Of a stretch of 35,432 nt of DNA, positions 972 through 12,115 are shown in pieces. The notes beneath the pieces are model-generated. The model ran no database searches. It was not told where the DNA came from and saw only the letters and a program-made list of their open reading frames with translations. A program made the translations under genes and the position numbers. Position 1 is the stretch's first letter, and every line of letters begins with the position of its first letter. Source of the stretch: Bacteroidota bacterium (GTDB lineage Bacteria; Bacteroidota; Ignavibacteria; Ignavibacteriales; Ignavibacteriaceae); NCBI GenBank assembly GCA_021815365.1, contig JAKAGZ010000028.1:1-35432 (forward strand), written 5' to 3'.

Positions 972-1394
972 TCAACTCTCAATTTGCTGAACAAATTTTT
1001 TGAACTCTTCTTTTATTTCATCTCTTATTCTTCTGAACGTATTGAATATTTCTTCTTCCGTTCCAACGGCTTCCGCCGGATCTTCAAATCCTATGTGCAA
1101 TTGCTTTCCAACCTTTCCAATAAAAACCGGACAAGTTTCCTTGGCGTTATCGCAAACTGTAATTACAAAATCAAAAGACTCGTTCAAGAATTTATCAACT
1201 GTTTTAGGATAGTTTTTCGAAAGGTCAATACCAACTTCTTTCATTACTTGAATTGCTTTGGGATGAATTTGTTTTGATGGATTTGTTCCGGCAGAATATA
1301 CTTCCAATTGCGAATCGAAAGATTTTAGAAATCCTTCAGCCATCTGGCTGCGGCAGCTATTGCCGGTGCAAAGTATTAAAATTTTTTTTGTCAT
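972..1394 (-). CDS. arsC: Arsenate reductase, thioredoxin-coupled (LMW phosphatase fold)
   Basis: This cytoplasmic enzyme reduces arsenate to arsenite so that the ACR3 pump can export it. The 140-residue protein has the phosphatase P-loop C9-T-G-N-S-C14-R15-S near its N-terminus. The resolving cysteines C81 and C88 lie in VCDNAKETCP, and the general acid Asp sits in FEDPA (about residue 105). This is the three-cysteine pattern of the S. aureus pI258 ArsC type, which uses thioredoxin, rather than the glutaredoxin type. The length matches the family. The ATG at 1394 is preceded by a good AAAGGAAA ribosome site, left intact by the repeat element just upstream. acr3 follows 108 bases downstream. 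Confidence 0.95.
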   Translation of the reverse strand: MTKKILILCTGNSCRSQMAEGFLKSFDSQLEVYSAGTNPSKQIHPKAIQVMKEVGIDLSKNYPKTVDKFLNESFDFVITVCDNAKETCPVFIGKVGKQLHIGFEDPAEAVGTEEEIFNTFRRIRDEIKEEFKKFVQQIES

Positions 1395-1409
1395 TCATTT
1401 CCTTTCTTT

Positions 1410-1764
1410 CTGTCATACCCGCGAAGGCGGGCATCCATTATTTAGTTAAATCTCTGTATAAATCATTCCAATTAGGATTTGACTTTTCTATTAACTCTAT
1501 TTTCCATTTTCTTAACCATTTTTTTCATTGCCTTCTCACGTTTAATTGCTTCATTTATTTCTGAATGTATTTCATAATAAACCAGCATTTTAACGTTATA
1601 CTTTTTTGTAAAGCCTTCTATTATTCCTTCTTTATGTTCATATACCCGGCGTATTAAATTGTTTGTTACACCAATGTATAATGTTCCGTTTTTCTTGCTT
1701 GTTAGAATGTAAACATAATATTGGTTCATTGCTTTTAAGATTCCCGCTTTCGCGGGAATGACAG
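1410..1764. mobile_element. Small GIY-YIG element with inverted terminal repeats
   Basis: Bases 1410-1431 (CTGTCATACCCGCGAAGGCG plus GG) match the reverse complement of 1743-1764 at 20 of 22 positions by manual count. Each end also contains its own palindrome: CCCGC/GCGGG at 1418-1431, and ATTCCCGC/GCGGGAAT at 1740-1759. The ends bracket a single gene for a GIY-YIG protein. The element starts 8 bases after the end of arsD and ends 15 bases before the arsC start, so both flanking genes and the arsC ribosome site are intact. Movement of the element is an inference. The inverted ends are seen directly. Confidence 0.6.
1472..1729 (-). CDS. Small GIY-YIG domain endonuclease
   Basis: This 85-residue protein belongs to the small single-domain GIY-YIG (UPF0213/YhbQ-like) group. 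The two signature strands are visible as YVYILTSK and LYIGVTNN. They are followed by the catalytic arginine in LIRRVYEHK and by EAIKREKAMK, which carries the likely metal-binding glutamate. The C-terminus is strongly basic. GIY-YIG domains cut or nick DNA. The function of these free-standing small members is not settled. The gene has nothing to do with arsenic by sequence. It sits inside a pair of inverted repeats, so it is best read as cargo, or as the motor, of that element. It runs in the same direction as the ars genes. Confidence 0.85.
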   Translation of the reverse strand: MNQYYVYILTSKKNGTLYIGVTNNLIRRVYEHKEGIIEGFTKKYNVKMLVYYEIHSEINEAIKREKAMKKMVKKMENRVNRKVKS

Positions 1765-1771
1765 CTTTATA

Positions 1772-2107
1772 TTATACAATTTGATTTACTAAATTTTTTA
1801 ATTCATCAAAAATCGGATATGATTTTTCCTTCACAACCTTGCCATTAATTAAAGTTAAAGGAAGGACTTCAACTCCATTTGATTGAAGCCGTTTCATAAC
1901 TTCCGGCTGCTGCATAAATTTTTGTCCTTGCTGGCTAAGCAAATATCTTTCGATGCTTACTTTACCATCAAGTTCCTTCTTGAATTTTATAATTGCCTCA
2001 TTAATATCCAGCAAAGCCGGATCAATATCCGGTCCGCACAATCCGCTGGGGCAGCACATCGGCGGATCGAAAATTTCTATTTGTTTAACCTCTGTTGCGT
2101 TATTCAT
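1772..2107 (-). CDS. arsD: ArsD arsenic metallochaperone
   Basis: ArsD binds arsenite or antimonite, hands it to an efflux ATPase (ArsA) where one exists, and can act as a weak repressor. The 111-residue product, read from the ATG at 2107, has the hallmark vicinal cysteines in MCCPSGLCG (C18, C19, C24). Their spacing equals C12-C13-C18 of E. coli ArsD. The thioredoxin-like fold ends with VLPLTLINGKVV. A longer in-frame start exists at 2149, but it would overlap the upstream gene, and the ATG at 2107 has an AAGGA site upstream. No arsA is visible here. It may lie beyond acr3 or be absent. Confidence 0.92.
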   Translation of the reverse strand: MNNATEVKQIEIFDPPMCCPSGLCGPDIDPALLDINEAIIKFKKELDGKVSIERYLLSQQGQKFMQQPEVMKRLQSNGVEVLPLTLINGKVVKEKSYPIFDELKNLVNQIV

Positions 2108-2109
2108 AC

Positions 2110-2385
2110 TTAATCCTTTTTTAACTTGCTCGAAGTGAAATCGAGACATTTTTTAATTTCGTTTATGTCAAATACTTGATTCGGTTTTGATTCCAGATTT
2201 AAGATTAGTTCATCATCTAAAGAACTTATATTGAGAGATTGCAGCTTTTTATATTCATCTGTTGGACAATTACATTGACCTTTTTGGCAAAGTTCAAAAT
2301 TAGAGAGCAGTGCTTCTCTTTCTTCGGCTTTCGATTTAATGAATATATTTAATTTACTTTCAGCAGATTCGATTTTGTATTTCAT
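2110..2385 (-). CDS. Small cysteine-rich protein of the ars operon, function unknown
   Basis: I do not recognise a named family for this 91-residue protein. It has a compact cysteine cluster CQKGQCNC (C33, C38, C40) followed by PTDEYKKL, and one further cysteine near residue 80. There is no signal peptide and no hydrophobic segment, so it should be cytoplasmic. It sits between fmdB-like and arsD genes, ends two bases before the arsD start, and is clearly co-transcribed. The cysteine cluster and the operon suggest metalloid or metal binding, for example as a chaperone or buffer. That role is inferred from context only. Confidence 0.75.
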   Translation of the reverse strand: MKYKIESAESKLNIFIKSKAEEREALLSNFELCQKGQCNCPTDEYKKLQSLNISSLDDELILNLESKPNQVFDINEIKKCLDFTSSKLKKD

Positions 2386-2402
2386 TTAGTTTCTCCTTTC
2401 GA

Positions 2403-2639
2403 TTAACAACAACCGCTTCCAGAACCGCCGCAGCAAACTCCGCCGTTGTTTTGTGAATTTCGTGATTTAACATTCACTGTTTGACCGCCAAGAATAGCAA
2501 AGCCGCCAAATACTTGTTGTAGGTTTTCACTTCCGCATTGTTCGCAATTTATTTTCAACCCTTCTTCTTTTTCTTTCACTGTTGCTTTTACATCAAAATA
2601 GTAACCGCAGTCTTTACAGTGATATTCATAAGTTGGCAT
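2403..2639 (-). CDS. FmdB-family zinc ribbon protein with cysteine-rich tail
   Basis: The 78-residue protein opens with MPTYEYHCKDCG, the standard FmdB start. It has two CxxC knuckles (C8/C11 and C32/C35) that should bind one zinc. FmdB proteins were named as putative regulators, but their molecular role is unclear. The unusual part is the C-terminus: a glycine- and serine-rich stretch carrying two vicinal cysteine pairs (C69-C70 and C77-C78). Such a tail could bind a soft metal or arsenite. The start codon touches the stop of the CMD-domain gene upstream with no gap, so the two are translationally linked. Confidence 0.85.
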   Translation of the reverse strand: MPTYEYHCKDCGYYFDVKATVKEKEEGLKINCEQCGSENLQQVFGGFAILGGQTVNVKSRNSQNNGGVCCGGSGSGCC

Positions 2640-2897
2640 TTATTTATTCTCCGTAGTTTGTTTTTCTTTTTCTCTGTTTATTAAATCATCCGCTAACTTG
2701 TAAATATCATTTATCGGCTTTTCCTTAACTGTTTTGCCAATCTTAATAGCTTCTTTAATTTCGACGATTGAAACACCAAGCCGTATCGCTTCAGCAAAAT
2801 GATAACGCAGACAAGGAAGACAGTTGCCCGCGATAGATGAGCCGATTGCTATAAGCTCTGTTATTTTAGAATTGAGATGTAAGACTGCATTTTCCAT
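2640..2897 (-). CDS. AhpD-like carboxymuconolactone decarboxylase (CMD) domain protein
   Basis: The 85-residue protein matches the CMD/AhpD fold. The motif NCLPCLRYH gives the redox pair C26 and C29 with H33 (CxxCxxxH), as in alkylhydroperoxidase AhpD. The proteins of this group act as small disulfide reductases or peroxidases. The following helix (EAIRLGVSIVEIKEAI) is typical. It is the second gene of the leftward ars operon, 46 bases after arsR. A redox partner in arsenate reduction or protection from arsenite-induced oxidation is plausible but not shown. Confidence 0.85.
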   Translation of the reverse strand: MENAVLHLNSKITELIAIGSSIAGNCLPCLRYHFAEAIRLGVSIVEIKEAIKIGKTVKEKPINDIYKLADDLINREKEKQTTENK

Positions 2898-2943
2898 TAT
2901 AGTAAGTTTAGTTTGATTATCCCTTATAACCCTTTTATCTAAC

Positions 2944-3348
2944 CTACGCCTTTGCTTTTCCCTTAATCATTTTCAGCAAATCTTTTTCCGGTATAATTCC
3001 AACAACACATTTATTATTTTCTCTCAAAATCAGCCGTTCATTCAAGCGAAGTTCATCTTCTAAAAAAACTTTATCACTCAAATAATTCTTTAAGAAAGAG
3101 AACAAGTTTTTGTTTTCAGTCGTGTTTTTGTTCAATTCATAATAGACCCACGTTCCTTCCTTTTCAGCCGTCAATAAGTCAGCGTTTCTAATTATGGTCA
3201 AAGCTTTAGAAACAGAATATTGCGGGATTTTAAGTGCATCCATCAATTCACATACACAAAGATTTTGCCCGCTCTTAATAAAAAGATTTATTATCCTTAA
3301 CCTTGTTTCATCTGCTAAAGCTCTTAGAACATTTATTTTGTTATTCAT
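2944..3348 (-). CDS. arsR: ArsR/SmtB-family repressor, first gene of the ars operon
   Basis: This winged-helix metalloid sensor represses its own operon and lets go of DNA when arsenite binds. The 134-residue protein carries LADETRLRIINLF, the arsenite motif NLCVCELM (C31, C33) in the helix before the recognition helix, and PQYSVSKALTIIRNADLL as recognition helix and turn. This is the same Cys-Val-Cys site as in E. coli ArsR. It has an extra 30-residue C-terminal part containing another cysteine (NNKCVVG). The start is an ATG with an AAGGTG site. The upstream promoter holds two dyads likely to be its operators. Confidence 0.93.
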   Translation of the reverse strand: MNNKINVLRALADETRLRIINLFIKSGQNLCVCELMDALKIPQYSVSKALTIIRNADLLTAEKEGTWVYYELNKNTTENKNLFSFLKNYLSDKVFLEDELRLNERLILRENNKCVVGIIPEKDLLKMIKGKAKA

Positions 3349-3378
3349 TTATGAAGCACCTTGATTTATTTATTTTTT

Positions 3379-3422
3379 ATATGCCAAATCTTGCATACAA
3401 ATATATGCCACAATTAGCATAT
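3379..3422. promoter_or_regulatory. arsO: Twin ArsR operator candidates
   Basis: Two dyads of the same design lie between the divergent arsR genes: TATGC-N8-GCATA at 3380-3397 and ATATGC-N8-GCATAT at 3403-3422. Their centres are 24 bases apart. The first lies over the expected leftward transcription start. The second overlaps the leftward -7 box and the spacer, and abuts the rightward -33 box. Binding by one or both ArsR proteins would block both promoters. The dyads are seen directly. The binding is inferred. Confidence 0.7.
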
Positions 3423-3429
3423 TGTCAAT
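3398..3429 (-). promoter_or_regulatory. Leftward ars promoter (Bacteroidota type)
   Basis: On the minus strand, ATTG (3429-3426) is followed after 20 bases by TATATTTG (3405-3398). This fits the Bacteroidota primary-sigma consensus TTTG-N19-TAnnTTTG apart from one base in the -33 box and one base of spacing. Transcription would start near 3392, about 45 bases before arsR. Confidence 0.6.
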
Positions 3430-3452
3430 AGATTTTTAATTAGTTATTTTAG
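3421..3452 (+). promoter_or_regulatory. Rightward arsR promoter candidate
   Basis: ATTG (3421-3424) is followed after 20 bases by TATTTTAG (3445-3452), one base off TAnnTTTG. The predicted start near 3458 leaves about 20 bases of leader with a GAGAGAGA ribosome site before the ATG at 3479. The palindrome ATTGTCAAT (3421-3429) supplies the -33 box for both directions. Confidence 0.5.
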
Positions 3453-3478
3453 TTATGCAAATAAGAGAGAGAGAAAAT

Positions 3479-3787
3479 ATGGGCTGTTGTGTTAAAAATG
3501 AAGAATACACAAAACTTCAAATGGAAGTAGCTAAATATGCTAAAGCGTTTGCGCATCCTGCAAGAGTAACAATTTTAGAATTACTTGCAAAGAAATGTAA
3601 CTGCATCTGTAATGATTTAGTAGAAAGCTTGCCACTGGCACAATCCACTGTTTCTCAGCACTTGAAAATATTAAAAGAAGCCGGGCTTATTGATGGTATT
3701 CAGAAAGCTCCAGCTATTGAATATCAATTGAATGTGAAGAAGTGGCTGGAAGCAAAAAAAGCATTGAAGGAATTCTTTGAAGAGTAG
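3479..3787 (+). CDS. arsR: Second ArsR-family repressor
   Basis: The 102-residue winged-helix regulator is read from the ATG at 3479, which follows a GAGAGAGA ribosome site. An in-frame ATG at 3455 would add eight residues but lacks such a site. The protein shows FAHPARVTILELL, then CNCICNDL (C40, C42, C44), then the strong recognition helix PLAQSTVSQHLKILKEAGLI. Two more vicinal cysteines sit at the N-terminus (C3, C4). The cysteine positions differ from those of the first ArsR and resemble another arsenite-site group. It is transcribed away from the ars operon, alone, and probably acts on the shared promoter region, giving two-sensor control. Confidence 0.92.
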   Translation: MGCCVKNEEYTKLQMEVAKYAKAFAHPARVTILELLAKKCNCICNDLVESLPLAQSTVSQHLKILKEAGLIDGIQKAPAIEYQLNVKKWLEAKKALKEFFEE

Positions 3788-3998: not shown

Positions 3999-4748
3999 TT
4001 ATTTTTTATCTAACCAGTTTAACAATCCGTTTATAAGTGTAAGCGGATGCGGCGGGCAGCCTGGAATGAATAAGTCTATTTTGTTTTGTTCCAGAAATTT
4101 TCTTTCTGTTTCTTCTGAGTCTTGAAATATACCCCCTGAAATTGCGCAAGCACCAAAGAGGATTATTATTTTGGGATTTGGAACAGCATCATAACATATT
4201 TGAGCTGCGTGAGCCATATTTTTAGTTACTGGCCCGGTAATTACTACTCCATCTGCGTGACGCGGTGATGCAACAAACTCAATACCGAACCTGCCCATAT
4301 CAAAATTAACATTGCTTAGTGCATTTAATTCAAGCTCACAGCCGCTGCAGCCGCCAGCAGAAATCTGTCTTAGCTTTAATGATTTTCCAAAATATTTTTT
4401 GATTTTTTCTGATGCTTTTTCCGGTGAGACTGCTTCCGTTTCCTTTGTTACAATTAGTTTTTCTCTTTTATCAACAGCTAAATTAAAGTTATTTGTGTAA
4501 TGAATTATTTTTTCCGGACAGACTTCCTCGCACAATGGACAGAACAAACACAAGCCTAAATCTATACTTAATGGATCTGTTTTTATCGCATCAGTTGGGC
4601 AAACCTCAGCACATTTTTTACAGCCGTCCGGGCAAGGTTTATCTCCTATAACCGGTAACCCGCGAAATAATTTTGGCAGCAATGCAGCGCCTACATCCTG
4701 AATAACTGAATTTCTTTGAAGTATTCTGAGTCTAATTTCGTCAATCAT
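3999..4748 (-). CDS. hyfI: Ehr/hydrogenase-4-like small subunit fused to a 2x[4Fe-4S] ferredoxin domain
   Basis: This electron-transfer subunit of a membrane complex is related to group 4 hydrogenases and to NuoB/NuoI of complex I. The first 80 residues form a two-cluster ferredoxin with ligands C39, C43, C46, C50 and C67, C70, C73, C77. Residues 125-249 are the NuoB/HycG-like domain with all four ligands of its [4Fe-4S] cluster: C134 and C137 (GGCSGCELE), C201 (FGACAISGG) and C231 (PGCPPHP). It therefore looks able to carry electrons, unlike the large subunit, which lacks its metal site. The fusion replaces the separate HycF/HyfH ferredoxin. It is the last gene of the operon, 23 bases after the large subunit. 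Confidence 0.88.
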   Translation of the reverse strand: MIDEIRLRILQRNSVIQDVGAALLPKLFRGLPVIGDKPCPDGCKKCAEVCPTDAIKTDPLSIDLGLCLFCPLCEEVCPEKIIHYTNNFNLAVDKREKLIVTKETEAVSPEKASEKIKKYFGKSLKLRQISAGGCSGCELELNALSNVNFDMGRFGIEFVASPRHADGVVITGPVTKNMAHAAQICYDAVPNPKIIILFGACAISGGIFQDSEETERKFLEQNKIDLFIPGCPPHPLTLINGLLNWLDKK

Positions 4749-4771
4749 AATTAATAACTAAAATAAAATTT

Positions 4772-6250
4772 CTATAAATCGTGTCCTGCATAAGATAAAT
4801 CAAAACTTTTATTGCATAAAGGAAAATCTGATATAGCAGTTTTACGTAAAGCTAAACTTAATCCATACCAGTTATTAAATGAGGGATCTTTTATTTTATA
4901 TTGAAGAATCTTTCCTTCTTCATCTGTAAAAGCAGTGTGAACTATCTCTCCCCGCCATCCTTCAACAATTGAAATAACTCCGGAATTAATTCTTAACTTA
5001 TTTAGATCAGAAATTATTTTGCCGTTGGGAAGATTCTCAAGCTGTTCGGATATAAAACTAAGCGATTCATCAATTTCAAGCGCACGCAGCCGTGCACGTG
5101 CAAATACATCACCGGTTGATAATGTAACCGGTGATACTGGAAAATACCGGTACGCTCCGTATGGGAAATGTATCCTTGTATCCAATTCAATACCGCACGA
5201 TCTTGCTGCAGTTCCTACAAGCCCAATCTTCACCGCAAAATCTTTTGAAACTATTCCGGTATTTTCAAATCTTAGCAAAGCACCTGTCGAAGAAAAAAAG
5301 AAATCATTTATGGCTGATATATCTTTTTTTATTATTTCTAAATTGCCCTTTATTTGTTTTAAATTTTCATCATTAAAATCAAACCTTACACCGCCGTAAA
5401 CAAATAATCCTCTCCCAAATCTAGAACCGCATAAGAAAGCAAGACTATTGATAACAAGAGTTCTCAATCTTCCGTAAGCAGCTGCCGGCAATGCAAATCC
5501 AATATCATTTGCGATACCTCCAAGCCCGCTTAAGTGCATTGCAATTCGTTCAAGCTCTTCGGCAATAGAACGAATTAATTGCGCACGCAGATTTACTTGT
5601 GTGTCAGTCATAGATTCAATTGCACTGCAATGTGCATAAGTATGACCAACAACTGTATCACCGGCAATTGATTCGGAAAGAATTATTCGCTGGTTAGGGT
5701 TTGCACTTAACATCAGCGATTCAACACCGCGGTGCTGATATCCTAAATTTATTTCAAGATGATAAACCAGTTCTCCGTGGCACTGAAATCTGAAATGCCC
5801 CGGTTCAATTACTCCTGCGTGAATTGGACCGACTGCAACTTGGTGTACTTCATCACCGTCAATATTAAAAAATTTATATAGTTGATTGCCCAAAATAATA
5901 TTCTGCTTTCTTACCGGTCTTAGCCACGGGTGATTGACTGGTTTATAACCAAAATTTTCGGCAAGCTCACATTCAAAATAATTTGTTTGGGGAAACTGAT
6001 TAGCGAAGCTCTCAAATTCTAATTTGTTTCCCGGAATTTCACAACCGATAATATAAAGGGAAGAAGAAACCGAATCAGAAAGTATTGATACAATTTTATT
6101 AGGATTTTTTTTATCAACTGGAAATAAGCCAATCATCCTATAACCGCTTGTTAATGCATTCAAAACGGAATCTTGAAAATCATTTCTATTCAAGAATTCA
6201 ATTTCATTACGATAGAAAACTTCTCCGTTTTTAACCGTTAAAAAATTCAT
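4772..6250 (-). CDS. hyfG: Ehr/hydrogenase-4-like large subunit lacking NiFe ligands
   Basis: The 492-residue protein joins a NuoC-like N-terminal domain (about residues 1-115) to a NuoD/HycE-like catalytic-type domain, as in HycE and HyfG. In true hydrogenases two CxxC motifs bind nickel and iron. Here the first reads SESIAGDTVVGH (192-203), where family comparison would expect the form ERxCGxCxxxH. Both cysteines are replaced, by Ala196 and Thr199, while Glu193 and His203 remain. The second site, expected as DPCxxC, reads DFPLCNKSFDLSY (475-487), with a single misplaced cysteine. The protein ends at residue 492 without a cleavable tail. I conclude it cannot bind NiFe and belongs to the Ehr group, of unknown reaction. 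It overlaps the HyfF-like gene by four bases. Confidence 0.88.
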   Translation of the reverse strand: MNFLTVKNGEVFYRNEIEFLNRNDFQDSVLNALTSGYRMIGLFPVDKKNPNKIVSILSDSVSSSLYIIGCEIPGNKLEFESFANQFPQTNYFECELAENFGYKPVNHPWLRPVRKQNIILGNQLYKFFNIDGDEVHQVAVGPIHAGVIEPGHFRFQCHGELVYHLEINLGYQHRGVESLMLSANPNQRIILSESIAGDTVVGHTYAHCSAIESMTDTQVNLRAQLIRSIAEELERIAMHLSGLGGIANDIGFALPAAAYGRLRTLVINSLAFLCGSRFGRGLFVYGGVRFDFNDENLKQIKGNLEIIKKDISAINDFFFSSTGALLRFENTGIVSKDFAVKIGLVGTAARSCGIELDTRIHFPYGAYRYFPVSPVTLSTGDVFARARLRALEIDESLSFISEQLENLPNGKIISDLNKLRINSGVISIVEGWRGEIVHTAFTDEEGKILQYKIKDPSFNNWYGLSLALRKTAISDFPLCNKSFDLSYAGHDL

Positions 6251-7698
6251 AATCTGATGCCAAAATCTTTTGAAATACTTAAAATGTTTTCTTGCAAAAT
6301 TCCCGGAGAGATAGTCCCAATTGCAATTAATAAAATCAATAATACTATTACTGAAAAATGAATTATTTCAAAACTCTCTTTTTCTTGTATAGCTTTTTCA
6401 CTTTTTTCTCCATACAACATTTGAAATAAAGTTTTTCCCATATTTATAAAAATGAAAAGTAGAAGAAACATAGTTACTGCCAGTATCCACGGCTTATTTG
6501 AAAAAAGCATTCCTTCAAATATCATAAGTTCACTAAAAAAAATCCCAAACGGCGGAATAGCCGATATCGCAAAAAATGAAAGTAAAAAAAGCCACCCTGT
6601 CCACGGCATTAAATTTATGACAGATTTTATCCCGTTAACTTCTCTTGTCTTAAACCTGCTATGAATATTTCCTGCGGTAAAAAACAAAACCATTTTATTT
6701 AACGAATTATAAATTACGTGATACATTGCTCCGGCAAATGCTAAACCACCGACACCAATCCCCAGCGTTATTATTCCAAGGTGCTCAACACTGGAGTAAG
6801 CAAGTAAACGTTTATAATTATTCACTTTGAACATAAAAATAAATGCTACAGCAACAGAGAGCAATCCGCCGATAATTAAAATTAATTTTGCAAATTCATA
6901 GGAAGTAGTTGGCGTGAGGATTTGAAATATTCTCATAACTCCTAGGAGTGCTGTTATGCGTAATGACCCTGACATAAGCGCCGCAATGGGACTTGGTGAA
7001 TTGCTCGTTGCGTCTACATCACCGGAGTGCATTGGTGCAATTCCAATTTTTGTACTTAGTCCAACAAATATAAAAATGAAGCTCGCTTTAAGCCAAATCG
7101 GGTTTAATTTAGTTGCATTTTTAACGAACTCTGAAAAAAATAATTGCTGCCCTTCCATTATGGTTCCGTTAGCTGAAAGTGTTAAGAATAAAATCCCAAT
7201 AAAAGCAAAAGCAATTCCAACTGAAACTAAAAAGAGATATTTCCACATTGCTTCCAGCGCTTCTTCATTCCGGTAATAATAAATAAGCGGAGCCACACTT
7301 AATGTAGTTGCTTCTGCAGCAACCCAATACATTCCAAAGTGATTGCTTAAAATAGCCGCCGTATTAGCAAACAAGTAAAAGTTTAACAGCAGGAAATAAT
7401 ATTTTTTACCCGCCTCTGCTTTTGATGTAACCGGGCGTTTCAAATATGAAAATGAGATAAGCACAACCCAGAAGTAAACATTTGAAAGTATGAGAAGAAA
7501 TAATTTACTGAGTGGATCTGTGCTAAAGAAAAACGGCAGATTTGGTTTATACAAGCCGATAAAAATAATAAACGAGAAAAGGAGATGGAACGCACTAACA
7601 GTTAATGAAATTGCATATTGTGAACGAGTGCCTTTAATAAGGTAACAAACAGCAGCAGCAATTAAAGGGATTAAAATTAAGACAGAGAATTCAAGCAT
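6247..7698 (-). CDS. hyfF: HyfF/NuoN-like proton-pumping membrane subunit
   Basis: The 483-residue integral membrane protein of the Mrp-antiporter/NuoL-M-N family has about 13-14 hydrophobic segments. Typical features are AEATTLSVAPLIYYYR with a membrane glutamate, GLSTKIGIAPMHS with the broken-helix lysine and histidine, and RLLAYSSVEHLGIITLG with another lysine and the conserved SVEH. These polar residues line the proton path in complex I and hydrogenase 4. The gene shares one base with the preceding HyfE-like gene and overlaps the next by four, so translation is coupled. Assignment to HyfF rather than HyfD follows from its place before the large subunit and its companion HyfE. Confidence 0.88.
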   Translation of the reverse strand: MLEFSVLILIPLIAAAVCYLIKGTRSQYAISLTVSAFHLLFSFIIFIGLYKPNLPFFFSTDPLSKLFLLILSNVYFWVVLISFSYLKRPVTSKAEAGKKYYFLLLNFYLFANTAAILSNHFGMYWVAAEATTLSVAPLIYYYRNEEALEAMWKYLFLVSVGIAFAFIGILFLTLSANGTIMEGQQLFFSEFVKNATKLNPIWLKASFIFIFVGLSTKIGIAPMHSGDVDATSNSPSPIAALMSGSLRITALLGVMRIFQILTPTTSYEFAKLILIIGGLLSVAVAFIFMFKVNNYKRLLAYSSVEHLGIITLGIGVGGLAFAGAMYHVIYNSLNKMVLFFTAGNIHSRFKTREVNGIKSVINLMPWTGWLFLLSFFAISAIPPFGIFFSELMIFEGMLFSNKPWILAVTMFLLLFIFINMGKTLFQMLYGEKSEKAIQEKESFEIIHFSVIVLLILLIAIGTISPGILQENILSISKDFGIRL

Positions 7699-8330
7699 TA
7701 GTCCTTAAGTCTCCTTAATATTGTTACATCAAACCCTTCAAATGTTGAACTGATTCTGTTTAGTGCAATTCCCATTAAAAATACTACAACAAATACATCG
7801 AGCAGCACACCGATTTCGATCATTATAGGCAGCTCTGAAGCAACAGCGGTTCCAAATAAAAATATCCCATTTTCCAATACTAAAAATCCGGCAACGTGAA
7901 TAATTAATTTCTTTCTGAATATTATAATAAATATTCCTACCGCAACTGCGGCAAAACCGCTTGCAAAAGGAATGATTTCAATTTCTGTGCTTTGCGATAA
8001 AATACTTGCAGCGAGAAAAATTATTATGAATGAAAAAATAACAAGCAGTAAAAAATTGAATTGCTGTATTGTCGGTTCAATTGTTCTCTTAATATCGAGT
8101 TCTAAAATAATTTTATTAATATACCTCGGTATAACAATCACTTTTATAATGAATAAAGTAGCGGGTAGAATTACAGCAAAGATTGAAAACTGCTCTATAA
8201 AGGGTAACATCAATAGTATTGTAAGCAAAATACCCTGAAACCGGAGAACAGCTACATAAGCTTTAACGCGTGGTGTTACAGCCAAATAAAACAGAGACAA
8301 ACAAAAAAGAATACTTAATACATTCTGCAT
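7698..8330 (-). CDS. hyfE: HyfE-like membrane subunit (NuoK-related)
   Basis: The 210-residue protein is almost wholly hydrophobic with about six membrane segments. Family comparison places it with HyfE, a NuoK-related subunit carried by hydrogenase-4 and Ehr complexes. The second half contains the NuoK-like part (HVAGFLVLENGIFLFGTAV) with the conserved membrane glutamate in LENGIF. That residue belongs to the charged path along the membrane arm. It follows the HyfC-like gene by ten bases. Confidence 0.85.
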   Translation of the reverse strand: MQNVLSILFCLSLFYLAVTPRVKAYVAVLRFQGILLTILLMLPFIEQFSIFAVILPATLFIIKVIVIPRYINKIILELDIKRTIEPTIQQFNFLLLVIFSFIIIFLAASILSQSTEIEIIPFASGFAAVAVGIFIIIFRKKLIIHVAGFLVLENGIFLFGTAVASELPIMIEIGVLLDVFVVVFLMGIALNRISSTFEGFDVTILRRLKD

Positions 8331-8340
8331 AAGACTTTTT

Positions 8341-9267
8341 TTATTTAGTAAAAGTGTAAATCAGTAAATTCAATATTCCAATAGCAGTAGCGAATAAAAG
8401 ATAATGAGGAATATTTTTCATTTTAAAACGTGAGGTTACTGTTTCAACTGCAGCTAAGGCGGCAGAGAGTATAATAATAACCACAACAAAAATAATTATA
8501 CCTAAAGTATAGCTTTGCACAGCAAAAGGGTAAAAGAATGATGCTTCAAGAATTACATATATAAATAATTTGATGTAACTCGAATATTGATATAAAAACA
8601 AATCAATTCCCGAATTATCTAAAATCATCACCTCGTGAATCATCGTTAGCTCGAGATGAGTATTCGGATCATCGACCGGCATACGTGAACACTCAGTAAC
8701 GGCAAGTATAAATACCGATATTGAACAGACAATTATAAAAACTACAAATGATATATTATCTAATCTTATGGAATGATAAATATCATAAATTGAAGTGAAA
8801 CCGCTGATGAAAGCTATACTGCCGATAGTGAAAAAAAAGATTGGTTCGGCAAAAACTGCAAAGGTGGCTTCACGTGCCGCCCCCATTCCTTCAAACGAAC
8901 TGCCTATATCCATTGCAGCAAGTACCTGAAAAAATCTTGCTAATCCAAGCATGTATGCAAATAAAATTATGTCACCTTCAAAACTGATTAATGGACGAGC
9001 AAAACTAATTGGCAGCATTGCAGCAGCAGCAGCAACTGCAATAAGATTTATCAATGGTGCGATAGTGCTGATAAAAGATGAACTGTTTGCATTTATGGTT
9101 TCTTTCTTCATTAGTTTCTTCAACTCATAATATGGCTGAAGAATGGATGCACCAGCTCTTCCGGTATATATTGCTTTTTGTTTGTTGACTAAACCGACAA
9201 ACAAAGGCGATAATCCTAAAATCAGAATTAAAGAAATTATTCCTTGTAATATTTGGACTACTTCCAT
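8341..9267 (-). CDS. hyfC: HyfC/NuoH-like membrane anchor subunit
   Basis: The 308-residue protein has about eight membrane segments and connects the soluble arm to the pumping arm. Recognisable blocks are GRAGASILQPYYELKKLMKKE near the N-terminus, SFEGMGAAREATFAVFAEPIF in the middle, and DDPNTHLELTMIHEVMILDNSG, the family's best conserved loop, rich in acidic residues. In complex I the equivalent NuoH forms part of the quinone chamber and of the coupling route. The start overlaps the end of the HyfB-like gene by ten bases. Confidence 0.92.
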   Translation of the reverse strand: MEVVQILQGIISLILILGLSPLFVGLVNKQKAIYTGRAGASILQPYYELKKLMKKETINANSSSFISTIAPLINLIAVAAAAAMLPISFARPLISFEGDIILFAYMLGLARFFQVLAAMDIGSSFEGMGAAREATFAVFAEPIFFFTIGSIAFISGFTSIYDIYHSIRLDNISFVVFIIVCSISVFILAVTECSRMPVDDPNTHLELTMIHEVMILDNSGIDLFLYQYSSYIKLFIYVILEASFFYPFAVQSYTLGIIIFVVVIIILSAALAAVETVTSRFKMKNIPHYLLFATAIGILNLLIYTFTK

Positions 9268-11228
9268 AGGAACGCTATCAAACTATATATTGTAATGATT
9301 ATTAAAATAAAAGCGATGTAGTATCTTATATCAGTATAGCTTAAAAATCTTATACGGGAAACAAAAGAGCTAAAATTTCTGAATGCGGGCAATAAAATTT
9401 TATTATCTGCCAGATCTTCAGAGTGGCTTTCGAATTTTCCCTTTAATGGAAAAATCTCTTTTTGCTTATCAACTTTTTTATGATAAACCAAAGCTGTTTT
9501 TGAAATTTCATTTAATTCATCTGCATAAGAAGAAGCCGTGTATTGCATTCGCGGATTAAGTCCTTCATAGCCGCAGCCCCAAGCAGAAGAAATTCTTCTT
9601 CCATATTTCTTCTGAATGCTTCTCTTCCACAAAAATATTAAAATGATTCCGACGCTTGCTGATATAAAAATAATACTGAGTAAATACCAATTAATATTTA
9701 ACAAGCTGAAAGAAGATGCTGCTGGAATAAATCCCTCAGTTAAAACTTTATTTACAATTACAATAAAAGGCTGCGGGTAAAACCCTATTGCAACGCAAAG
9801 CAAAGCAAAAATTCCAAGTGACAGATATTCATAAAAAGAAATATTAAAATGTTTTACTTCTTTTCGTTCTTTTCCCAAGAACATAATTGAGTTTATTTTA
9901 GTAAAACAAGCAACAGCTAATCCGCCAACAAACGCCAATCCAACTGCCGAAATCAGCATTAATAATGGATAATAATTTTTTAATTCTTTAGCGGTAGTAA
10001 AAAAGCTATTATAAATAATGAACTCGGAAATAAATCCGTTAAATGGCGGAATGCCGCTTATTGCAATTGATCCGATTAGAAACAATACAACAAAATATTT
10101 TCCGTAATGCACAAGTCCGCCCATCAGTTCAATATTTCTGGTTCCTAGATTTTGATAAATTACTCCGCTGCCAACAAATAACAAACTTTTAAAAACAGCA
10201 TGATTAAGCGTGTGCAGAAGCGCTCCGCCAAAACCGAGCACTTGAATCGGCACTGAATGATAAGCTGAACCAATAAAGCCAACCCCAATTCCAATTCCGA
10301 TGATTCCAATATTTTCTACAGAATGATAAGCCAGCAAGCGCTTAATATCGTGCTGTGCTAATGCATACCAGACACCATAAATTGCGCTGATCATACTAAC
10401 TGAAAGCACTAACCAGCCGAGCCACTCGGGAGTGGGGTTCAAAAATTGAAACGTTCTTAAAATTCCGTATATACCCATTTTAATGATTATCCCGGAAAGA
10501 AAAGCGCTAAAGACCGTAGGTGCAATTGGATGCGCTCTCGGAAGCCAGAAATGAAATGGCATAAATCCGGCTTTCATTCCAAATGCAATTAATCCTAAAG
10601 CATAAAGAATAATAAACAACTTTCCAGCATCCGGTGAAAGATGAAAATTGCTGAACAGCCAACTGTTCGTTTGATTATGAAGAAAGAAGAAAAATACGTA
10701 TAAAAGAAAAACCACAGCGTGTGACATAACTAAATAATAGAACGCACCGGTTTGAACATCTTTTTTCTCTTTTTCGAAAATCATCCCAAGGTAAGCTGAA
10801 GTGCTCATTACTTCCCAGCAAATTAAAAATAAAATTGCGTGGTTTGACACAACTACCATTTGTGTGGACGTAAGCAGCACTGCATAAAAAACAAGATTGC
10901 TCTTTACAGATTTACCTTTTTCAATATAATGTTTAAGATAAGAGTAGCTGTATATAGTAGTTGGAATTGCAACAAGCTGAATAATGCATAAGAAATATAA
11001 ACCTAAAGCATCAAACCGGAATAGGCTGGTTGATATGCCAAATACATTCATATCTTTTAAAATAAAGTTTGAAGTTAGAACTGCGGTAAGTGTTGTGATG
11101 AAACCGGTTATTAATCCCGCAGCAAGCAGCAGGTGTGCTGCTGCAGATGCTTTTTTATTTTCTGTAAAAAAAGCTATAGCAGCTATTGAAGATAGTTGTA
11201 ATAATAAGGAGTAAAAAAGTAAATCCAT
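9258..11228 (-). CDS. hyfB: HyfB/NuoL-like proton-pumping membrane subunit
   Basis: The 656-residue, many-pass membrane protein is of the antiporter-like family. Conserved pieces include LICWEVMSTSAYLGM (membrane glutamate), GMKAGFMPFHFWLPRAHPIAPT (lysine and histidine of the broken helix) and DIKRLLAYHSVENIG. After the main domain a loop reads WGCGYEGLNPRMQYTASSYADEL, typical of HyfB and not of NuoL. A last membrane helix follows near residue 640. It is the first structural gene of the complex and lies 26 bases downstream of the EIIA-HTH gene. The operon has two pumping-type subunits (B and F). Confidence 0.92.
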   Translation of the reverse strand: MDLLFYSLLLQLSSIAAIAFFTENKKASAAAHLLLAAGLITGFITTLTAVLTSNFILKDMNVFGISTSLFRFDALGLYFLCIIQLVAIPTTIYSYSYLKHYIEKGKSVKSNLVFYAVLLTSTQMVVVSNHAILFLICWEVMSTSAYLGMIFEKEKKDVQTGAFYYLVMSHAVVFLLYVFFFFLHNQTNSWLFSNFHLSPDAGKLFIILYALGLIAFGMKAGFMPFHFWLPRAHPIAPTVFSAFLSGIIIKMGIYGILRTFQFLNPTPEWLGWLVLSVSMISAIYGVWYALAQHDIKRLLAYHSVENIGIIGIGIGVGFIGSAYHSVPIQVLGFGGALLHTLNHAVFKSLLFVGSGVIYQNLGTRNIELMGGLVHYGKYFVVLFLIGSIAISGIPPFNGFISEFIIYNSFFTTAKELKNYYPLLMLISAVGLAFVGGLAVACFTKINSIMFLGKERKEVKHFNISFYEYLSLGIFALLCVAIGFYPQPFIVIVNKVLTEGFIPAASSFSLLNINWYLLSIIFISASVGIILIFLWKRSIQKKYGRRISSAWGCGYEGLNPRMQYTASSYADELNEISKTALVYHKKVDKQKEIFPLKGKFESHSEDLADNKILLPAFRNFSSFVSRIRFLSYTDIRYYIAFILIIITIYSLIAFLWK

Positions 11229-11254: not shown

Positions 11255-11923
11255 TTATCCAATTCTTGTCTCTTCAATATGGCTAATAATGTCAATAATC
11301 TCTTTGTAATTGAGTCTGTTTTCTAATGCAAAACGAAAAGTTTCCTTTGAAAGTAGAAAGCTCAAATGAGCAAGTAAACTTAAATGCTGTTTTATTGTTT
11401 GTGAAATTAAAAGAATAATTGTATGTACCGGTTTTCCATCGAGCGATTTTAATTTAAGCAGTCTTTCGGGGAAGAAAAAATTAATTACCGGTTTATTCCT
11501 GCCGATCATTAGCGGAATACGTGGATGAGGCAGACTTATTCCATTTCCAATTGCTGTGCTCATTAACTCTTCCCGGTTCTTTAAAAGCTGAACAATTATA
11601 TCTCTATCAACATTATTTTCGAGATCAATCAGATTCACCATTTGCTCGATGAACAAATTTTCTGAAAAGTTGCAATTATAGAAAAATGAATTTTGATCAA
11701 GTACATTATTTAAAGTCTTAACGTGATACTCGGTCATCTTTTTATGACCGGAAATATTGATAGGAATATTCCTGCTTAAAGCCCATTCAATTATTTGCTG
11801 CTTGTTGAAAAGCATTTTGTCGTTCACTAACTGAAAAGGTATTTCCTTTTTCTTAATTAAGCCTTGAACCTCTTTATCAGATTTCAATAATAAATTAGCT
11901 ATATCCTTAACTGTTAAATCCAA
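11255..11923 (-). CDS. HTH - PTS EIIA (fructose/nitrogen type) regulatory protein heading the Ehr operon
   Basis: The 222-residue two-domain protein has an excisionase/MerR-like DNA-binding fold in residues 1-55 (VKDIANLLLKSDKEVQGLIKKKEIPF, split here only by eye). From about residue 85 it has an EIIA type-2 domain. The phosphorylated histidine is His133 in ISLPHPRIPL, and a second conserved His180 lies in KQHLSLLAHLS. EIIA domains accept phosphate from HPr, which points to control by phosphoenolpyruvate and nitrogen or energy status. No sugar permease is near. The start is a TTG at 11923 with GAGG six bases before it. It is 26 bases from the hyfB-like gene and probably shares its transcript. 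A role as switch for the complex is inferred. Confidence 0.8.
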   Translation of the reverse strand: MDLTVKDIANLLLKSDKEVQGLIKKKEIPFQLVNDKMLFNKQQIIEWALSRNIPINISGHKKMTEYHVKTLNNVLDQNSFFYNCNFSENLFIEQMVNLIDLENNVDRDIIVQLLKNREELMSTAIGNGISLPHPRIPLMIGRNKPVINFFFPERLLKLKSLDGKPVHTIILLISQTIKQHLSLLAHLSFLLSKETFRFALENRLNYKEIIDIISHIEETRIG

Positions 11924-11953
11924 AGTTAACCTCAGAAATTAATTCATTTCTCT

Positions 11954-12115
11954 TTATAAAGTTGGTATAAAATCTTTTGGTCTTCCTAATTTTGGTAAAT
12001 CAAGAATTTCTCTTGCTCTATCAAAGGCATCATCAATACTTCCATAAATATTTTCTTCACCAAATAAATCCAGTATGCCTGCCTGTGTCATATCGCTGCT
12101 GCCATCTTCATTTCT
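11954..12115 (-). pseudogene. Fragment resembling the C-terminal STAS tail of a SulP transporter
   Basis: Minus-strand reading gives about 50 codons without a start, containing AGILDLFGEENIYGSIDDAF and ending in a stop at 11954. The pattern GxENIxxxIDxAxxxAR is what I remember from the STAS end of SulP anion transporters. The membrane part is absent and the frame closes at once upstream. I read it as a decayed gene end. The family call is moderate. Confidence 0.4.

Follow-up and report, generated by a model that had tools for sequence, protein, structure and literature searches.

An energy-converting hydrogenase-related operon without NiFe ligands, headed by a predicted phosphotransferase-linked regulator gene, in a Bacteroidota genome

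We analyzed a 35,432-nt stretch of DNA from a Bacteroidota bacterium (assembly GCA_021815365.1, contig JAKAGZ010000028.1), referred to as a whole as the window, which carries an operon for an energy-converting hydrogenase-related (Ehr) complex. Open reading frames (ORFs) and their Pfam/NCBIfam matches (HyfB, NuoH/HyfC, HyfE, HyfF, 49-kDa, and NuoB plus 4Fe-4S) define a run of six genes from position 11228 to position 3999 on the minus strand, which encode HyfB, HyfC, HyfE, HyfF, a large subunit (EhrL), and a ferredoxin-NuoB fusion (EhrS). Neighboring ORFs in this run overlap or sit 10 to 24 bp from each other. An earlier note on this DNA, made from the sequence alone, covered only these six genes; a seventh operon gene (11255 to 11923), which lies outside the part it described, and a cut-down transporter gene upstream (11945 to 12091), both on the minus strand, are absent from it. 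The seventh gene encodes EIIA-HTH, a protein with a helix-turn-helix (HTH) domain and a phosphotransferase system (PTS) domain. The features of the operon, all on the minus strand, are as follows.

11945 to 12091, minus: remnant of a SulP anion transporter gene, approximately the last 49 codons (tblastn with the SulP of relative L036, 76% identity, E = 1e-18)
11255 to 11923, minus: EIIA-HTH, first intact gene of the operon, TTG start (PTS_EIIA_2, E = 9e-19; HTH_17, 1e-5)
9258 to 11228, minus: HyfB-like antiporter subunit, 656 aa (NCBIfam hydrogenase 4 subunit B, E = 4e-143)
8341 to 9267, minus: HyfC/NuoH-like membrane anchor, 308 aa (PF00146, E = 3e-28)
7698 to 8330, minus: HyfE-like membrane subunit, 210 aa (NF008556, E = 6e-14)
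6247 to 7698, minus: HyfF-like antiporter subunit, 483 aa (hydrogenase 4 subunit F, E = 7e-83)
4772 to 6250, minus: EhrL, NuoC/NuoD-like large subunit without NiFe ligands, 492 aa (PF00346, alignments, model)
5804 to 5806, minus: EhrL E149 codon, aligned to the proton-gate Glu E21 of MbhL (alignment)
5654 to 5665, minus: former N-terminal CxxC of EhrL, A196-G197-D198-T199 (alignment)
4784 to 4813, minus: former C-terminal CxxC of EhrL and its approach, N480-K481-S482-F483-D484-L485-S486-Y487-A488-G489 (alignment)
3999 to 4748, minus: EhrS, two-[4Fe-4S] ferredoxin fused to a NuoB-like domain, 249 aa (Pfam/NCBIfam, alignment)
4518 to 4634, minus: EhrS ferredoxin cysteines C39 to C77, putative electron entry (conservation)
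4056 to 4349, minus: EhrS NuoB-type proximal cluster cysteines C134, C137, C201, and C231 (conservation)

When 84,980 species genomes were scanned, relatives of the complex appeared at no fewer than 573 loci. For comparison, we used the 80 loci most similar to the window's family, a sample in which distant parts of Ehr are underrepresented. At 82 positions, the same residue occurs in at least 97% of 92 EhrL sequences, which come from many phyla, and together with the number of loci this leads us to conclude that the match to Ehr is not due to chance. When compared to solved structures, EhrL matches E. coli HycE best (7z0s, E = 8e-44), then MBH (6cfw, 2.5e-40), and then complex I and the sulfane sulfur reductase MBS (6u8y, 1e-19). 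In a maximum-likelihood tree, the Ehr sequences form one clade with a bootstrap of 98, which neighbors HycE/HyfG and is separate from NuoD; the group of Ehr, HycE/HyfG, and one long-branch sequence has a bootstrap of 100.

We found no HypD in the window's genome, which is 99.95% complete. As a control, we examined 61 genomes of the same family, where HypD occurs in all four genomes whose group 4 enzyme has CxxC (in three of them on the same contig) and in five of the 12 Ehr genomes. The two CxxC motifs, HypD, and the C-terminal extension that serve as criteria for a group 4 [NiFe] hydrogenase are all missing here. The earlier note had assigned the complex to the Ehr type, and both its clade outside the true group 4 hydrogenases and its genome, in which the maturation gene hypD was not found, bear this out. 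Published Ehr complexes are those of Geobacter (GSU0739-0745), comammox Nitrospira, and Margulisbacteria (PMC7894505, PMC10284858, PMC6349859). In the passages that describe them, they share hydrogenase-4-like subunits, an antiporter-like membrane arm, and a large subunit without CxxC, and their reaction is given as unknown; the same passages mention neither an EIIA-HTH gene nor an operator. Set beside these descriptions, the window's complex is, at the level of sequence, a true Ehr complex of an already known kind.

All four NiFe cysteines are replaced in EhrL (A196, T199, S486, and G489). In an alignment with HycE, the first CxxC aligns to A196 and T199, and the second (DPCYSC) aligns to D484-L-S486-Y-A-G489 (DLSYAG), with S486 and G489 at the cysteine positions. 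This agrees with the complete ligand loss described previously, and four cysteines at the NiFe positions, which the earlier note had named as an outcome that would count against it, do not appear. That note had, however, located the C-terminal site in the segment DFPLCNKSF, approximately eight residues too early. EhrL ends three residues past the last former ligand position, without an endopeptidase-cleaved extension, and there is no protease gene in the Ehr operon.

The loss of all NiFe ligands, together with the truncation of the upstream SulP gene in the window, would fit a degenerate hydrogenase operon that no longer has a function. We give this explanation next to no credence, given that the ORFs are intact, the near-invariant EhrL positions are so numerous, the gene order is kept in at least 12 phyla, and the operon has a dedicated regulator. 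In the 92 EhrL orthologues, the former NiFe site is conserved like an active site (D198, N480-K481-S482, and Y487), and both G197 and D198 are invariant. Ehr-specific positions gather at the former ligands (D198, N480, K481, S482, F483, S486, and G489), with Q172, C157, and D455 in addition, and the clade's C-terminal site bears the signature NKSFxLSYxG. Glu149, the counterpart of MbhL Glu21, is present in 92 of 92 EhrL sequences; the MbhL residue acts as a proton gate (PMC7684303). The predicted structure of EhrL (pLDDT 86.7) has HycE as its best fold match (7z0s, TM 0.84), and its beta1-beta2 loop is of the hydrogenase type. Judging by this conservation, the former NiFe site is a conserved pocket rather than a degenerate remnant.

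EhrS has eight ferredoxin and four NuoB-type cysteines, which confirms the intact iron-sulfur chain reported before. The second ferredoxin cluster is present in 83 of 83 EhrS sequences. The ferredoxin fusion characterizes the family and is not peculiar to the window's copy. The proximal-cluster motif is a hydrogenase-type CxxC (CSGC) with the same spacing as in HycG, whereas the host's own NuoB carries the adjacent CC typical of complex I. In the window's genome, we detected four strong matches to POR-type enzymes (ferredoxin-dependent 2-oxoacid oxidoreductases), which by family should reduce ferredoxin. These matches and the universally kept second cluster fit the earlier suggestion that ferredoxin is the electron donor.

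Electrons could also flow the other way, with an ion gradient lifting them from a mid-potential donor to ferredoxin for use in biosynthesis. In principle, redox pumps of this superfamily can work in either direction, and the retained ferredoxin module would serve such a role. Nevertheless, several enzymes of the genome are expected to make reduced ferredoxin already, and no donor enzyme is found in the operon or conserved alongside it; we therefore regard reverse operation as distinctly improbable.

The earlier note had offered a quinone as the electron acceptor. Ehr would then be a ferredoxin:menaquinone oxidoreductase, a complex I-like pump in which the quinone enters the cavity of the former NiFe site and its binding residues differ from those used in complex I. 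The host does make menaquinone, as indicated by the presence of MenD, UbiA-family enzymes are found in 47 of 50 Ehr genomes, and Ehr has its fold and membrane anchor in common with complex I. However, the residues that bind quinone in complex I, H38 and Y87 of Nqo4 (PMC7684303), are missing from EhrL, where the equivalent residues are I148 and G197; the EhrS motif is CxxC rather than CC; and the hydrogenase-type beta1-beta2 loop is kept along with Glu149. Three of the 50 Ehr genomes have no UbiA-family prenyltransferase match, including L061, which has a 71% identical EhrL, but this is suggestive only, because all three are metagenome-assembled genomes of unknown completeness and L061 could be mis-binned. 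In addition, Ehr-bearing Margulisbacteria are described in PMC6349859 as lacking complete quinone pathways. We consider a quinone acceptor unlikely; the proposal finds poor support in these ligand positions, the hydrogenase-type cluster motif, and the distribution of UbiA.

The antiporter-like (Mrp/Hyf) membrane arm consists of HyfB, HyfC, HyfE, and HyfF, and the Pfam/NCBIfam matches agree with the complete arm noted earlier. Pump residues are conserved in both antiporter subunits (E139, K219, H226, K347, and E402 in HyfB; E129, K217, H224, K335, and E390 in HyfF). Because these residues and the POR-type enzymes are present, a ferredoxin donor and a pumping output are reasonable inferences. 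We propose that Ehr descends from a [NiFe] hydrogenase of the formate hydrogenlyase type and carries no NiFe center. Pyruvate- and other 2-oxoacid:ferredoxin oxidoreductases would supply reduced ferredoxin to the ferredoxin domain of EhrS, and electrons would pass through the two [4Fe-4S] clusters and the NuoB-type proximal cluster, for which the cysteines are observed, to the EhrL pocket. There, a small substrate that requires protons may be reduced, with protons delivered via Glu149 and with D198, T199, N480, K481, S486, and Y487 as candidate substrate contacts. This reaction would drive ion pumping by HyfB and HyfF, in which the necessary residues are intact.

EIIA-HTH, encoded approximately 27 bp upstream of hyfB, consists of an N-terminal HTH_17 domain (excisionase/MerR-like) fused to a PTS EIIANtr-like domain. 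Its phospho-acceptor, His133, is present in 100% of 54 sequences, and its predicted structure (pLDDT 84) has EIIANtr proteins as top matches. Thus, EIIA-HTH shares with EIIANtr (PtsN) the EIIA domain, the phospho-His, and the fold, but unlike PtsN it has a fused DNA-binding domain and occurs only in the Ehr genomes of our sample. By a six-frame count, 63 of the 74 Ehr operons that could be assessed begin with its gene; these operons span at least 12 phyla. According to record titles, the phyla with such operons include Bacteroidota, Spirochaetes, Planctomycetes, Verrucomicrobia, Lentisphaerae, and Kiritimatiellota, and further lineages are Omnitrophota, Elusimicrobia, Riflebacteria, Latescibacterota, Acidobacteria, and delta-/Myxococcal; we take Pontiella to belong to Kiritimatiellota and Thermoanaerobaculia to Acidobacteria.

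We searched whole genomes for EIIA-HTH (61 of the family and 296 of the phylum), defining a full-length match as >240 bits. Full-length matches occur in 10 of the 61 family genomes and eight of the 296 phylum genomes, all of which have Ehr with the gene at the operon head; the next matches fall to 110 bits and are plain PtsN-like proteins. Combining the samples, EIIA-HTH is present in 17 of 23 Ehr genomes and in none of approximately 323 others. EIIA-HTH is missing from all four genomes that carry a group 4 enzyme with CxxC; therefore, the gene tracks Ehr rather than hydrogenases. The window's genome encodes HPr. We found no report of a link between PTS and Ehr in the open-access literature (subscription journals were not covered).

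In other phyla, regions upstream of EIIA-HTH contain direct repeats of the form TGTCC-N5-TGTCC, or the reverse, with an exact 10-bp spacing, and GGACA often lies 27 bp from TGTCC. We counted 16 exact 10-bp-spaced pairs in 61 upstream regions, compared to a mean of 0.01 in shuffles. Across 1.58 Mb of loci, there are 20 exact pairs, and 16 of these are located within 200 bp upstream of EIIA-HTH. The repeats go with the more common, Y-R-W type of recognition helix (22 of 37 cases) and not with a diverged type (two of 25), although these counts ignore shared ancestry. A de novo search for palindromes upstream of the operon yielded nothing. Given its co-occurrence with Ehr, its invariant His, and the operator-like repeat in other phyla, EIIA-HTH suggests that a PTS phosphorelay probably controls the Ehr operons of this clade, through putative phosphorylation and putative DNA binding. 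The His would be phosphorylated through HPr, allowing the protein to sense the phosphoenolpyruvate (PEP)/pyruvate or nitrogen state, and the HTH domain would bind the promoter of its own operon.

Taken together, the interpretation that we favor, with modest confidence, is an ion pump that is fed by ferredoxin, acts on a small substrate in need of protons, and is served by a dedicated PTS-linked EIIA-HTH regulator. A wider proposal is more tentative and may well fail: that Ehr is a distinct enzyme class, namely a ferredoxin-driven pump with a metal-free or differently metallated site and its own PTS-phosphorylated regulator acting on 10-bp-spaced TGTCC repeats, in at least 12 phyla, switched with the PEP/pyruvate or nitrogen state. 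The ion-pump part is close to published work on Ehr (PMC6349859, PMC10284858, PMC7894505); the PTS regulator is the main addition.

Several observations weigh against these proposals. The EhrL loop that lines the pocket (residues 127 to 158) and the C-terminus have low model confidence, because the partner subunits were left out of the model. EIIA-HTH is absent from 11 of the 74 Ehr operons. In the window, the recognition helix of EIIA-HTH is of the diverged type and no TGTCC repeat lies upstream of the gene, where the region is rearranged and holds the SulP remnant. Finally, we saw no clear wider TGTCC regulon in 2.2 Mb (approximately 74%) of the genome of a relative (G355), where other sites resemble background.

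Ehr is found in hundreds of species, including ammonia oxidizers and Geobacter. A regulator with an invariant phospho-His and a predicted operator offers a straightforward way to find out in which conditions cells use Ehr, and the residue signature of the EhrL pocket narrows the candidate substrates. If true, the PTS link would connect phosphotransfer with an ion pump of the respiratory type.

Among known systems, E. coli formate hydrogenlyase and hydrogenase 4 (HycE, HyfG; 7z0s) are closest in fold and sequence, with the same NuoC-like N-terminal domain and HyfB/C/E/F arrangement; Ehr differs from them in lacking the NiFe cysteines, the endopeptidase tail, and a genomic hypD, and in the fusion of ferredoxin to NuoB. 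MBS (6u8y, PMC7684303) is likewise a pump that derives from group 4 without being a hydrogenase. MBS keeps two of the four cysteines, reduces polysulfide at a three-cysteine cluster, and has a shortened NuoB loop (PMC7684303), whereas Ehr keeps no ligand cysteine, has a full four-cysteine CxxC cluster, and retains the proton-gate Glu. Complex I (NuoB/CD/H/L/M/N) shares the fold, membrane anchor, and pump residues with Ehr, but the Ehr operon has no NADH module, and Ehr lacks the H38/Y87 ligands and the adjacent CC in its NuoB part. The host has a separate complex I of its own (L001).

The closeness of EhrL to a formate hydrogenlyase subunit in fold and sequence raises the possibility that Ehr partners a formate dehydrogenase, with formate oxidation or CO2 reduction coupled to ion movement. 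Such a partnership is proposed for Margulisbacteria and Saganbacteria (PMC6349859), and Geobacter Ehr proteins are described as more abundant with formate (PMC7894505). There is no formate dehydrogenase gene in the window, although the rest of the genome was not searched for one, and besides the six subunits and EIIA no family is common to more than 10 of the 92 loci. We consider this partnership very improbable. In the same 92 loci, we found no neighboring gene beyond the six subunits and EIIA that names a substrate; the other shared "families" are mostly antisense ORFs.

An intact SulP gene lies directly upstream of the EIIA gene, as the first gene of the operon, in six relatives (L036, L038, L062-L064, and L133), and a contig-cut copy is present in L035. 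SulP is divergently oriented beside the operon in L066, and it adjoins Ehr in eight relatives overall. Because the gene is truncated in the window, SulP is not essential. Beside the window's operon, positions 972 to 3787 hold an arsenic-like set (an ArsC-like phosphatase, an ArsD-like protein, and two ArsR regulators); ArsC-like genes are similarly near Ehr in L041 and L078.

Two relatives (L091 and L115) have two EIIA-HTH genes each. In L066 (12311-14531), a CBS-EIIA protein and a CitMHS/ArsB-type transporter are encoded downstream of ehrS; in L136, a transporter of similar type lies ahead of the operon (479-1783). Plasmids of rhizobia and Burkholderia carry a second Ehr group, which shares the NKSF signature but has an EhrS with no ferredoxin domain. 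On plasmids of Burkholderia multivorans (L149) and Paraburkholderia (L209), HPr genes lie a few kilobases from Ehr of this second group, a second link to PTS. Ehr operons with two HyfB-like genes occur in L086, L091, L100, L103, L114, L116, L121, L124, L127, L130, and L136, as in the EhrA-1 naming in Geobacter. A Variovorax plasmid (L146, NZ_LR594673.1) carries Ehr of the window's clade and, a few kilobases on, a second hyfB-hyfC-hyfE-hyfF set that is cut off where the examined plasmid sequence ends, so the two complexes may be in tandem. A further complex I-like cluster (L048, G048:C3) has a large subunit without CxxC on a long branch near HycE/Ehr and is not orthologous to the window's complex.

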